A stretch of DNA of 49,029 nucleotides, taken from contig DATBAK010000058.1 in the NCBI GenBank assembly GCA_036271555.1, forward strand, positions 1-49,029, given 5' to 3'. Numbering within the stretch: the stretch's first letter is position 1; each line of letters opens with the position of its first letter. Positions 29,921 to 34,995 of the stretch are shown piece after piece. Source of the DNA: Acidimicrobiia bacterium (GTDB lineage: Bacteria; Actinomycetota; Acidimicrobiia; IMCC26256; PALSA-610). The translations under genes were made by a program, and so were the position numbers. The notes under the pieces are model-generated. The model saw only the letters and a list, made by a program, of their open reading frames with translations, ran no database searches and had not been told where the DNA came from.

Positions 29921-31231
29921 ATGGCCAAGAACGACTTGATGGACCGCGTCGTCAATCTGACGAAGCGGCGGGGCTTGGTCTTTCCCTCCAGCGAGATCTA
30001 CGGCGGCTTCCGTTCCACGTGGGATTACGGGCCGTTGGGCGTCCTCCTGAAGCGCAACGTGAAGGACGCGTGGTGGCGCTCGATGGTGCAGCTGCGCGAC
30101 GACATCGTCGGCCTCGACAGCGCCATCCTCATGGCGCCGAAGGTGTGGGAGACGAGCGGTCACGTCGCCACCTTCACCGACCCGCTCGTCGACTGCCGCA
30201 ACTGTCACGAACGTTTTCGCGAGGACCAGCTCCCCGAGTCGGGCGCGTGCCCGAACTGCGGCGTGAAGGATCAGTTCACGGACGCGCGTCAGTTCAACCT
30301 GATGTTCAAGACGCATGTCGGCCCCGTCGAGGACGACGCGTCGGTCGCGTACCTGCGCCCCGAGACCGCGCAGGGCATCTTCGTGAACTTCAAGAACGTG
30401 CAGACGACCGCGCGCCGCAAGCCGCCGTTCGGCATCGCGCAGATCGGAAAGTCGTTCCGCAACGAGATCACGCCCGGCAACTTCCTCTTCCGCACTCGTG
30501 AGTTCGAGCAGATGGAGATGGAGTACTTCGTGCCGCCCGACGAGGCGCCGAAGTGGTTCGAGTACTGGGTGCAGCAGCGGTTCAACTGGTACGTCGAGCA
30601 CGGCATCCCCGAGTCGATGCTCCGCATCCGGCCGCACGATGCCGAGGAGCTGTCGCACTACTCGGCGGGCACCTCCGACGTGGAGTTCCTCTTCCCGTGG
30701 GGTTGGGGCGAGCTCGAAGGCATCGCCAACCGCACCGACTTCGACCTCCGTCGTCACTCCGAGGAGTCCGGCGACGACCTCTCGTACTTCGACCAGGCGA
30801 CGAACGAGCACTACCGGCCGTACGTGATCGAGCCCGCGTCGGGTGCCGACCGGGCGACGCTCGCCTTCCTGCTCGCCGCGTACGCCGAGGAAGAGGTGAA
30901 CGGCGAGCCGCGCACGACGCTGCGACTGCATCCGCGCCTCGCGCCGACGAAGGTCGCGGTGCTCCCGCTCTCGAAGAAGGACGAGCTCGCGCCGCTGACG
31001 AACGAGGTCGCCGGCGCGCTGCGACCGCACTTCCAGATCGACACGGATACGGCGGGCGCGATCGGTCGTCGGTACCGACGGCAGGACGAGGTCGGCACGC
31101 CGTACTGCGTCACGATCGACTTCGAATCGCTCGACGATCAGGCGGTCACGGTGAGGGAGCGGGACTCGATGGGGCAGGAACGCGTGCCGGTGAAGGCACT
31201 GCTCGACCACCTCCGCACCCGGTTCGATTGA
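29921..31231 (+). CDS. glyS: Glycyl-tRNA synthetase (alpha2 type)
   Basis: Class II aminoacyl-tRNA synthetase charging tRNA-Gly, 436 residues, of the homodimeric bacterial/eukaryotic type. Motif 1 contains [20 protein letters not shown]; a Cys-rich insertion (DCRNCHERF and ACPNCGVKD, about 89-113) may bind zinc. Motif 2 has [17 protein letters not shown] and [20 protein letters not shown]. Motif 3 lies in the [12 protein letters not shown] segment. The C-terminal anticodon-binding domain (about 330-436) has [19 protein letters not shown] 29921 is probably translated from a leaderless mRNA. Confidence 0.97.
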
Positions 31232-31307: not shown

Positions 31308-32318
31308 ATGGACGACTATTACGAGTTGCTCGACGTCGCGCCCGATGCCGACCGCGAGGAGATCCGCGGCGCGTACCGCACCAAGCGCGACGACCTGCAG
31401 GCGCAGGACGGCGACGACACGCGCGGCAAGGTCGCGGAACTGAACCGCGCGTGGAACGTGTTGTCGGACCCGACCCAGCGTCAGCGCTACGACGACCGGC
31501 TCGCGCGGGCGCGGGAGTCGGGTGACGACGGCGACGGCGAGCACCACGACGACCGTGACGGCGAGGATGGCGGCGAGCGACCGGTGCCGGTCACGCGCGC
31601 GCAGCGGCGCGAGGAGATCCGCCACGCGCGGCAGAACCGCATGACGGCAACCGTCACGCTGCCGAACGGGCTCGTCGTCGCGCCGGTGCGCCGCCGCCTC
31701 GTGGCGCTCGCGACCGATGTCGTCATCCTGCTCGCGTTGTTCTCCGCGGTGCAGCTGATCGGCGCGCGCCAGGTCGACAAGCGCTTTCCCGGTGAGCGCT
31801 CGCACGCGTCGGCGCTGCAGAAGCGCGTCGACGCGGTCGACAAGACGATCGACGCCGACAAGAAGAAGGTGTCGGCCGCGAAGGACAAGCACGACACCGC
31901 GGCGGAGAAGACCGCGACCGACGAGCAGAACGCCGATCAGAAGAAGAAGGACGGCTACAACAAGGAGATCGACGACATCAACCGGGACTTCGCGCCCGGG
32001 CTGAAGGTCGTCTACGCGATCGGGGTGTTGGTCGCGTTCCTCTATCTCGTCCCGTTGACCGCGCTGACCGGCCAGACGGTCGGCAAGCGGTTGCAGAAGA
32101 TCCGTGTCGTTCGGGTTGCCGACGGGTCGCCGGTGGGTTGGAAGCCCACGCTGATCCGTTTCGGCCTGCCGCTCGGTGTCGCCATGCTCCTCGGTGTCCT
32201 CATCCTCGGTGAGTTCGCGTTGCTGCTCGGGATCATCTTCATCATCGGCTGGGTGAACCGGCCCGATCGCCAGGGCATCCACGACCGGTTGGCGAAAACG
32301 GTGGTCGTCGAGGCGTGA
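31308..32318 (+). CDS. J-like domain fused to an RDD membrane domain
   Basis: 336 residues, start ATG 31308 (GTG 31305 possible). The N-terminus is a J-domain-like module (1-65, DYYELLDVAPDADREEIRGA and LNRAWNVLSDPTQRQRYDDR), but the HPD between helices II and III is missing (KRDDL there). An acidic Asp/His/Glu linker follows (about 68-90), then an RDD domain: the first helix RRRLVALATDVVILLALF (about 128-147) and GQTVGKRLQKIRVV and GIHDRLAKTVVV at the end. Between the first two helices lies a charged Lys/Asp/Ala coiled coil of about 60 residues. RDD proteins are suspected transporters or antiporters; the function here is unknown. It lies downstream of glyS. Confidence 0.8.
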   Translation: MDDYYELLDVAPDADREEIRGAYRTKRDDLQAQDGDDTRGKVAELNRAWNVLSDPTQRQRYDDRLARARESGDDGDGEHHDDRDGEDGGERPVPVTRAQRREEIRHARQNRMTATVTLPNGLVVAPVRRRLVALATDVVILLALFSAVQLIGARQVDKRFPGERSHASALQKRVDAVDKTIDADKKKVSAAKDKHDTAAEKTATDEQNADQKKKDGYNKEIDDINRDFAPGLKVVYAIGVLVAFLYLVPLTALTGQTVGKRLQKIRVVRVADGSPVGWKPTLIRFGLPLGVAMLLGVLILGEFALLLGIIFIIGWVNRPDRQGIHDRLAKTVVVEA

Positions 32319-32361: not shown

Positions 32362-34995
32362 ATGACCAAGTACGTCTATGGCTTCGAAGAAGGCTCGAAG
32401 GAGCAGAAGTTCCTGCTGGGGGGCAAGGGCGCCAACCTCGCCGAGATGACGATTCTCGGCCTTCCCGTACCACCGGGATTCACGATCACGACCGAGGCGT
32501 GCAACGCCTACATGCAGCGCGACAACGCGTTCCCCGACGGCCTCCTCGACGAGGTCGCGAAGGCGCTCGAGCAACTCCAGGACAAGATGGGCAAGCGGCT
32601 CGGCGACCCCGTCGACCCGCTGCTCGTGTCGGTGCGCTCGGGTGCGCCCTTCTCGATGCCTGGGATGATGGACACCGTCCTCAACCTCGGGCTGAACGAC
32701 GACTCGGTCGGCGGCCTCGCGCGCCAGACCGGCAACGAGCGCTTCGCGTACGACTCGTACCGCCGCTTCGTGCAGATGTTCGGGAAGATCGTGCTCGACG
32801 TCTCCGGCGAGCACTTCGAGGACGCGCTGCACGACCTGCTCGAGGAGAAGAAGGTCACCAACGAGACCGAGCTCGACCGCACCGCGCTCGAAGGGCTCGT
32901 CGCGACGTTCAAGGGCATCGTCAAGAAGGAAGCGGGCGTCGACTTCCCCGACGATCCGCAGGAGCAGCTTCGCTACGCGATCGAAGCCGTGTTCCGCTCG
33001 TGGAACGGTGACCGCGCGCGCGTCTACCGCCGCATGGAGAAGATCCCCGACGATCTCGGCACCGCGGTGAACGTGCAGACGATGGTGTTCGGCAACAAGG
33101 GCGACGACTCCGGTACCGGAGTCGCGTTCACGCGCAACCCCGCCACCGGCGAGCGCGCGCCCTACGGCGACTTCCTCGCCAACGCACAGGGTGAGGACGT
33201 CGTCGCCGGCATCCGCATCACCGAGCCGCTCGACGCGATGGCCAACGACTTCCCCGAGTCGCATCAGCAACTGCTCGACGTGTTGGCGAAGCTCGAGCTG
33301 CACTACCGCGACATGTGCGACACCGAGTTCACCGTCGAGCAGGGTCGCCTGTTCATGCTGCAGACGCGCGTCGGCAAACGCACCGCGCTCGCGGCGTTGC
33401 GCATGGCCGTCGAGATGCACGAAGAGGGACTGATCTCGAAGAACGAAGCGGTGCTGCGCGTGCAGCCCGACCAGCTCGACCAGATGCTGCACCCGCAGTT
33501 CGACCCCAACGCGAAGTACACCGTGCTCGCGAAGGGTCTCAACGCGTCGCCCGGCGCAGCCGTGGGGCGCGTCTACTTCACGGCCGACTCCGCGGAATCG
33601 CATCACAACGACGGTGAGCGCGTGATCCTCGTGCGGCCCGAGACGTCGCCCGACGACCTGCGCGGCATGATCGCGGCGGAGGGCATCCTCACATCGCGCG
33701 GCGGTCTCGTCAGCCACGCGGCCGTCGTTGCGCGCGGCATGGGCACGCCCGCGATCTGCGGTGCCGAGGCCGTGCGCATCGACCTCAAGACGCGCACGTT
33801 CACCGTCGGTGACGTGACCGTGCGCGAAGGCGACGTCGTGTCGATCAACGGCACGACCGGTGAGGTCGTCGTCGGCGAGGTCGCGGTCGTGACGCCCGAG
33901 CCGAGCGGTCCGTTCGGCACGGTGCTCGACTGGGCCGACGAGTTCCGCGTGCTGGGCGTGCGCACCAACGCCGATCTGCCCGAAGACGCGAAGCGCGCGC
34001 GTGAGTTCGGCGCCGAAGGCATCGGCCTCTGCCGAACCGAGCACATGTTCCTCGGCGACCGGCTGCCGATCGTGCAGCGGATGATCCTGGCGTCGAACGA
34101 CGAGGAAGAGGCCGCCGCGCTCGAGGAGCTGCGGCGCGTGCAGCGCTCCGACTACGTCGGGATCCTCGAGGCGATGGACGGGCTGCCGGTCACCGTGCGC
34201 CTGCTCGACCCGCCGCTGCACGAGTTCCTGCCCGACATCGAGGAGCTGATCGTCGCGCAGGCGAAGGGCGAGCTCGACGCAAAGGGCGAGCAGCTCCTCG
34301 CGGCGGCGCGCGCGTGGCAGGAAGTGAACCCGATGCTCGGGACGCGCGGCTGCCGGCTCGGCATCCTGAAGCCCGGCCTGTACCGCATGCAGGTACGGGC
34401 ACTCATGGAAGCCGCGGTCGAACGCAAGCAGGCGGGAGGCGATCCGCGCGTCGAGATCATGATCCCGCTCATCGTCAACCGCGCCGAGCTCGCGATGCTC
34501 GACGAGTGGGTGCGCGAGGTCGCGACCGAGGTGCTCGCGGCCGCGGGTGTCGACCTGCACTACACCGTCGGCACGATGATCGAGACGCCGCGCGCCGCGA
34601 TCGACGCGGCCGACATCGCGGAGGTCGCCGAGTTCTTCTCGTTCGGTACGAACGACCTCACGCAGATGACGTTCGGCTTCTCGCGCGACGACGTCGAGAG
34701 CCGGCTCATGCCCGCGTATCTCGCGGACAAGCTGCTGCGCGTGAGCCCGTTCGAGGAGATCGACGTCGAGGGTGTCGGCAAGCTCGTCGAGATGGGCGTG
34801 CGCGAGGGTCGGGCGACGCGCCCGGACCTCAAGCTCGGCATCTGCGGTGAGCACGGCGGCAACCCGGCGTCGGTGCACTTCTGCGCGGAGGTCGGCCTCG
34901 ACTACGTGTCCTGCTCGCCGTACCGCGTGCCGATCGCGCGGCTCGCCGCCGCGCACGCGGCGCTCGGCGCGGGCGGACCCGGCGGCACCGCGTAG
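32362..34995 (+). CDS. ppdK: Pyruvate, phosphate dikinase
   Basis: Interconverts pyruvate, ATP and phosphate with phosphoenolpyruvate, AMP and pyrophosphate; 877 residues, normal length. The ATP-grasp domain begins VYGFEEGSKEQKFLLGGKGA with SVRSGAPFSMPGMMDTVLNL. The swivelling domain has the phospho-His motif GGLVSHAAVVARGMGTP (near residue 455). The PEP/pyruvate TIM barrel has GLCRTEHMF, GTRGCRLG, FSFGTNDLTQMTFGFSRDD and the catalytic Cys in VSCSPYRVPIARLA. GGAGG precedes the ATG with about nine-nt spacing. It may serve PPi-linked glycolysis or gluconeogenesis; no neighbouring regulatory protein (PDRP) is seen. Confidence 0.97.
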   Translation: MTKYVYGFEEGSKEQKFLLGGKGANLAEMTILGLPVPPGFTITTEACNAYMQRDNAFPDGLLDEVAKALEQLQDKMGKRLGDPVDPLLVSVRSGAPFSMPGMMDTVLNLGLNDDSVGGLARQTGNERFAYDSYRRFVQMFGKIVLDVSGEHFEDALHDLLEEKKVTNETELDRTALEGLVATFKGIVKKEAGVDFPDDPQEQLRYAIEAVFRSWNGDRARVYRRMEKIPDDLGTAVNVQTMVFGNKGDDSGTGVAFTRNPATGERAPYGDFLANAQGEDVVAGIRITEPLDAMANDFPESHQQLLDVLAKLELHYRDMCDTEFTVEQGRLFMLQTRVGKRTALAALRMAVEMHEEGLISKNEAVLRVQPDQLDQMLHPQFDPNAKYTVLAKGLNASPGAAVGRVYFTADSAESHHNDGERVILVRPETSPDDLRGMIAAEGILTSRGGLVSHAAVVARGMGTPAICGAEAVRIDLKTRTFTVGDVTVREGDVVSINGTTGEVVVGEVAVVTPEPSGPFGTVLDWADEFRVLGVRTNADLPEDAKRAREFGAEGIGLCRTEHMFLGDRLPIVQRMILASNDEEEAAALEELRRVQRSDYVGILEAMDGLPVTVRLLDPPLHEFLPDIEELIVAQAKGELDAKGEQLLAAARAWQEVNPMLGTRGCRLGILKPGLYRMQVRALMEAAVERKQAGGDPRVEIMIPLIVNRAELAMLDEWVREVATEVLAAAGVDLHYTVGTMIETPRAAIDAADIAEVAEFFSFGTNDLTQMTFGFSRDDVESRLMPAYLADKLLRVSPFEEIDVEGVGKLVEMGVREGRATRPDLKLGICGEHGGNPASVHFCAEVGLDYVSCSPYRVPIARLAAAHAALGAGGPGGTA

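Follow-up and report, generated by a model that had tools for sequence, protein, structure and literature searches.

The window analyzed here, a 49,029-nucleotide stretch of contig DATBAK010000058.1 from an Acidimicrobiia bacterium (assembly GCA_036271555.1), carries between its glyS and ppdK genes a reading frame that joins a J-like domain to an RDD membrane domain, which we refer to as J-RDD. The frame at 31308 to 32318 and its fused make-up had both been proposed in the initial annotation; the coordinates were confirmed, giving a protein of 336 amino acids, and both domains scored above their Pfam cutoffs. Ranks below follow GTDB usage, in which we take the order to be IMCC26256, the family PALSA-610, and the class Acidimicrobiia; the NCBI taxonomy lists IMCC26256 under unclassified Actinomycetes. 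The features of the locus are the following.

29921..31231, plus strand: glyS, the upstream neighbor, 76 bases before the J-RDD start (NCBIfam NF003211, 640.6 bits)
31308..32318, plus strand: J-like/RDD fusion gene (J-RDD), 336 amino acids, ATG at 31308 and stop codon ending at 32318 (open reading frame, Pfam, orthologs)
31308..31505, plus strand: J-like domain, helices I to IV kept, without HPD, residues 1 to 66 (Pfam DnaJ, AlphaFold2, VIA-align)
31440..31493, plus strand: helix III/IV signature LNRAWNVLSDPTQRQRYD, residues 45 to 62, the most conserved soluble stretch
31506..31679, plus strand: linker, partly disordered, residues 67 to 124 (pLDDT below 50 at residues 74 to 88)
31677..32297, plus strand: RDD domain, interrupted by the hairpin insert, residues 124 to 330 (Pfam RDD, 74.3 bits)
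31680..31778, plus strand: RDD TM1 region, residues 125 to 157 (predicted helix 127 to 159, hydropathy peak 136 to 147)
31779..32003, plus strand: charged helical hairpin insert, predicted to be extracytoplasmic, residues 158 to 232 (predicted helices 161 to 193 and 197 to 254; composition; flanking charge)
32004..32069, plus strand: RDD TM2, residues 233 to 254 (AlphaFold2 model, hydropathy and charge)
32070..32315, plus strand: basic loop after TM2, TM3, TM4, and C-terminal QGxHDRxAKTxVV motif, residues 255 to 336 (alignment, model, charge)
32362..34995, plus strand: ppdK, the downstream neighbor, 43 bases after the J-RDD stop (NCBIfam TIGR01828, 1307 bits)

Pfam DnaJ (PF00226) matched residues 3 to 62 of the protein at 41.5 bits (cutoff, 27.8), and Pfam RDD (PF06271) matched residues 124 to 330 at 74.3 bits (cutoff, 24.1). 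Since about 75 residues (158 to 232) separate the first two RDD helices, the latter match extends over 207 residues on a 137-position profile. The initial annotation had placed about 60 charged residues at this point; the insert is indeed located between RDD helices 1 and 2, but it is about 75 residues long and only 34 of them are charged (18 Lys and Arg and 16 Asp and Glu in the 76 residues counted). Profile comparison found none of the rest of DnaJ beyond the J domain. The AlphaFold2 model, which was based on a 28-sequence alignment (mean pLDDT, 88.9; pTM, 0.62), has a J-type helical hairpin fold at residues 4 to 70 with pLDDT mostly above 90, a low-confidence linker at residues 74 to 88 (pLDDT below 50), and a single long helical hairpin that continues TM1 and returns into TM2. 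When the whole model was compared with the PDB using Foldseek, no match was obtained at an E value of 0.001 or better, and the best rows were J domains.

Structural alignment with VIA-align matched the J-like part to the J domain of CbpA (3ucs; Z 12.1, RMSD 1.7 over 69 residues) and to DnaJ in its complex with DnaK (5nro; Z 9.7, RMSD 1.1 over 60 residues). With a profile score above the cutoff and a four-helix J fold, J-RDD belongs to the DnaJ superfamily, and the concern that its N-terminal region might not fold as a J domain was not borne out by the prediction. All 28 aligned members had Pfam matches to DnaJ as well as to RDD at an E value of 0.001, and the distant member L067 scored 27.3 for DnaJ, just under the cutoff of 27.8. 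The loop between helices II and III in the 336-residue protein reads QAQDGDD, and the HPD motif is absent. HPD was found in J-RDD members from 0 of 36 genomes of the order (35 sequences were scanned, with L061 and L091 coming from one genome, and L066 and L068 were read by eye), whereas all 20 control J domains, picked by hand from protein-search matches in 20 genomes of the order, have it. It is also present in all four other J proteins of the source genome. These data uphold the initial annotation's central observation, namely, that the helices of the J domain are kept while HPD is missing.

The loss of HPD is structural, in that the J hairpin no longer spans a fixed length. Measured between the A of AYR in helix II and the A of AW or AY in helix III, it covers 29 residues in 19 of 20 controls and 28 residues in the remaining one, but anywhere from 19 to 39 residues in the 28 aligned J-RDD members. 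In the AlphaFold2 model of a distant member without the hairpin insert, both J helices are lengthened (residues 18 to 40 and 47 to 68), and the domain still has a J fold (Z 10.7, RMSD 2.4 over 70 residues against 6rzy). The helix III/IV consensus AW[NQ]VLSDPxQRxRYD is nearly invariant among J-RDD members, with A48, W49, L52, D54, Q57, and D62 identical in 28 of 28 aligned sequences. Given that the length of the J hairpin varies and helices III and IV are kept, constraint on the tip that carries HPD has been lifted.

We also compared substitution rates in 11 pairs of relatives. The dN/dS of the J-like domain was 0.00 to 0.33, lower than that of the linker in 10 of the 11 pairs and lower than that of the hairpin insert in 8 of them, in a set of pairs that share members and are thus nonindependent and in which several dS values exceed 1. 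These low ratios indicate that the domain is not decaying. Since the HPD tip has been lost while the rest of the J-like domain is under purifying selection, these results argue that the domain has been selected for a function other than one in the DnaK cycle.

Residue 20 in helix II is Arg or Lys in 28 of 28 aligned members, and residue 24 is so in 22 of 28. These basic residues are presumably the ones that face DnaK in DnaJ, and their partial retention means that some contact with DnaK may survive. That J-RDD still acts as a DnaK co-chaperone through an HPD-independent contact is nevertheless highly improbable, because HPD is absent in 36 of 36 genomes, the length of the J hairpin is not conserved, and even changes to HPN or QPD abolish stimulation (PMC13254874). 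J-RDD lacks the HPD of functional DnaK co-chaperones (classes A to C) and fits the definition of type IV (J-like) JDPs, in which HPD is nonconservatively replaced in a recognizable J domain (PMC13254874). The suggestion that the fusion is not an ordinary co-chaperone is hence well supported by the HPD counts (0 of 36 versus 20 of 20) and by the variable length of the hairpin tip. The canonical DnaJ of the same contig (14521 to 15645) resembles J-RDD in its J fold and in the sequence of helices I, III, and IV, but it differs in having HPD and further DnaJ parts.

In the membrane part, all 28 aligned members share the three residues after which the RDD family is named (R130, D137, and D326). The protein thus has the Arg at the start of TM1, the Asp within TM1, and the Asp near the C terminus that define the RDD signature (PMC5996927). 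J-RDD is like other members of PF06271 in this signature and in its four predicted helices, but unlike them in the added J-like domain and, in most members, in an insert of 64 to 102 residues between helices 1 and 2. VIA-align matched the RDD part to 7t92_A (Z 10.7, RMSD 3.7 over 132 residues), a match that may amount to no more than a shared arrangement of helices. Averaged over the 28 members, net charge was +2.5 before TM1, -0.4 just after TM1, 0.0 before TM2, +3.7 after TM2, and +1.8 after TM4. This positive-inside pattern suggests that the J-like domain and the C terminus are cytoplasmic and that the hairpin is extracytoplasmic.

The hairpin stretch was 64 to 102 residues long in 26 of the 28 aligned members and was essentially absent (9 residues) in the other 2. 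It is also absent in seven more distant genomes, making nine members without it (L038/L060, L039/L085, L063, L065, L087, L061, L066, L067, and L068), and a coiled coil was accordingly rejected as a defining feature of J-RDD. Its sequence was the fastest-changing part of the protein in several of the pairs in the dN/dS comparison, and VIA-align matches to Snf7 and seryl-tRNA synthetase fall in a range where only a common helical arrangement may be shared. The hairpin resembles a spacer or a rapidly evolving contact site. The initial annotation had suggested tethering or sensing. Tethering is plausible given the cytoplasmic J-like domain, the flexible linker, and the RDD membrane domain, whereas the case for sensing by the coiled coil is weaker, since the hairpin evolves quickly and is missing from nine members.

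As the main alternative, the RDD domain could be the working unit, either a cation/proton antiporter or another small transporter, with the J-like domain and the hairpin as regulatory or stability add-ons. An RDD protein of Halobacillus andaensis is reported to be an Na+(Li+, K+)/H+ antiporter that needs D154, a conserved C-terminal Asp (PMC5996927). The equivalent of D154 in J-RDD is D326, which is invariant in 28 of 28 members and is the only residue that we matched to one required by the antiporter, in a comparison that draws RDD function from this one paper. In addition, two families have lost the J part but retain the RDD domain at this locus. The antiporter also requires R124, R129, and D158, yet these are not general RDD features (PMC5996927). 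Weighing these points, we consider a transporter role possible but unlikely. The source genome also encodes an RDD paralog (L008 976 to 2037, contig C1) about 3.5 kb from dnaK and near dnaJ; it has a long Pro/Gln-rich C-terminal tail, and no J domain was seen in it.

The J-RDD fusion was found in 36 of 58 genomes of the order, whose actinobacteria are for the most part uncultured, and in 10 of 14 genomes of the source genome's own family. The 36 comprise 28 aligned, nearly full-length matches and 8 mostly more distant ones at the same locus (G044, G028, G032, G033, G034, G035, G036, and G037). The same fused frame thus occurs in 36 genomes at one locus, including the single-contig genome G008, and is under purifying selection, so that an assembly or gene-calling artifact joining two genes, which the initial annotation had allowed for, can be dismissed with near certainty. 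At the same locus, G005 and G006 have RDD only, and in G001 and G003 glyS is followed directly by ppdK; the locus is cut by contig ends in G016 and G046, and 14 other genomes of the order have no informative locus. Two further genomes differ in this interval. In G031 (L097 850 to 1500), the glyS-ppdK interval contains a short remnant of RDD whose frame shifts part way, reflecting either decay or an assembly error, and G030 (L101 1040 to 1510) has a different open reading frame of about 120 residues that matches neither RDD nor J.

In a phylum-level sample, 2 of 246 genomes matched J-RDD at an E value of 1e-10, both of them from the same order. In a class-level sample of 148 genomes, the full-length matches among those listed were all within the order, although adjacent weak J and RDD pieces in other orders could escape the listed matches. 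A contig scan returned 29 loci, 27 of which were J-RDD; the remaining two, L062 (Burkholderiales) and L064 (Deltaproteobacteria), matched in the J region only. No widespread J-RDD family emerged from the samples searched. Since the contig scan was seeded on the helix III motif and other J-RDD fusions would escape it, a fusion that bears HPD may exist elsewhere in bacteria.

In each of the 27 J-RDD loci retrieved, the gene is immediately flanked by glyS on one side and ppdK on the other, such that the fusion is conserved in relatives beside both genes. Where the contig was long enough, the gene order was often that of a housekeeping cluster, uppS-recO-glyS-J-RDD-ppdK-dgt-dnaG-rpoD (NCBIfam was used to check the neighbor names; matches to dgt and to some of the uppS, dnaJ, and rpoD models fell below the model cutoffs, but the best rows agree). 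Going only by the gaps of 76 and 43 bases, glyS, J-RDD, and ppdK may be cotranscribed, and a scan that was at chance level overall found no terminator-like site on the plus strand in the stretch separating the glyS and ppdK frames. Elsewhere in the class, outside this order, the 1.5 kb upstream of ppdK contained no J-RDD or RDD match in any of 25 loci (from 24 of 30 genomes) and contained glyS in 7 of the 25. A ppdK tree of 53 rows put the rows from other orders, followed by family f2, outside the J-RDD members; the fork uniting the rest had a support of only 91/82 and was drawn open. In f2, glyS adjoins ppdK with nothing between. The RDD-only loci of G005 and G006 and the remnant of G031 fell inside the J-RDD part of the tree, and families f4 and f16 keep RDD at the locus after losing the J part. 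The simplest reading of these gene orders is that J-RDD was gained once, within the order, into an older glyS-ppdK pair and that afterward the J part was probably lost at least once and the hairpin more than once, as read from a tree with weakly supported forks. In G044 (L052, L081), the ppdK beside J-RDD is 61% identical to that of the source genome, compared to 70 to 81% for most members of the order, as if it had been replaced.

Neither RDD proteins nor J-like (type IV) proteins without HPD are new in themselves. For their fusion, we found no paper naming one among the open-licence papers searched. Whether HPD deviations are accidents of evolution or have been selected for is called enigmatic in a recent review (PMC13254874). 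J-RDD provides a directly readable bacterial case, with dozens of orthologs at one locus in which the HPD tip has been lost and hairpin length is free. Moreover, its J-like domain is small, soluble, and amenable to testing.

We propose, with moderate confidence, that J-RDD is a J-like membrane protein of type IV (HPD-less), specific to this lineage, that functions as a tethered docking module outside the DnaK cycle. The cytoplasmic J-like domain would serve as the protein-docking module, with helices III and IV as its retained face, while the flexible linker and the four-helix RDD domain would hold it at the inner face of the membrane and the extracytoplasmic helical hairpin would be a spacer or a secondary contact site. 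J-RDD would not stimulate the ATPase of DnaK; its more likely role would be to hold or stabilize another protein, whether client or partner, at the membrane, in the way that CJD1 and CPP1 may illustrate in chloroplasts. We infer this docking role on top of the directly established domain make-up, HPD loss, conservation, locus, and selection on the J-like domain. Three points count against it: the basic residues of helix II are partly retained, families f4 and f16 have lost the J part, which implies that docking can be given up, and a designed J analog without HPD stimulated Hsc70 (PMC13254874).

CJD1 appears to be the nearest working parallel. It combines an N-terminal J-like domain lacking HPD with three TMs downstream of it. 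In the assays reported, it did not behave as a co-chaperone: an E. coli dnaJ/cbpA mutant was not rescued by it, and no binding to stromal HSP70 was seen in yeast two-hybrid assays; it did, however, bind ARC6 (PMC3196505). The J-like domain of CPP1 stabilizes POR on thylakoids (PMC9407819). Both are like J-RDD in having a J-like domain and a membrane location, a likeness at the level of architecture only (PMC3196505, PMC9407819). Unlike J-RDD, CJD1 is specific to photosynthetic organisms, and the parts of the report on which we draw describe neither its membrane part as RDD nor an extracytoplasmic hairpin insert (PMC3196505).

Full-length DnaK is encoded in the source genome, so a link between J-RDD and DnaK is possible. 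Pam16/Tim16, unlike J-RDD, is mitochondrial, has a known partner in Pam18, and is not known to carry an RDD domain. It is like J-RDD in being an HPD-less J-like domain at a membrane machine, and it pairs with Pam18 and restrains it (PMC13254874); helices II and III are involved in the pairing (PMC3196505). Since helix III is the conserved face of J-RDD and the source genome encodes both DnaK and an HPD-bearing J protein with apparent membrane stretches, the J-like domain might similarly pair with a true J domain, that of DnaJ or of the membrane J protein encoded by contig C10, and restrain or position DnaK at the membrane; we regard this pairing as quite improbable. A broader version of the docking proposal, which we consider doubtful, is that J-RDD is a bacterial, independently evolved counterpart of the Pam16/CJD1 principle, in which an HPD-stripped J domain would be reused for docking at the membrane, mounted on an RDD scaffold from which a helical hairpin points outward, and would recruit or restrain a J protein, DnaK, or a client there, perhaps with an outside signal relayed via TM1 and TM2 to the docking face. 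The C10 protein (136582 to 136770, L003), which is 266 residues long, carries HPD and has two apparent membrane stretches, making it a possible membrane partner.
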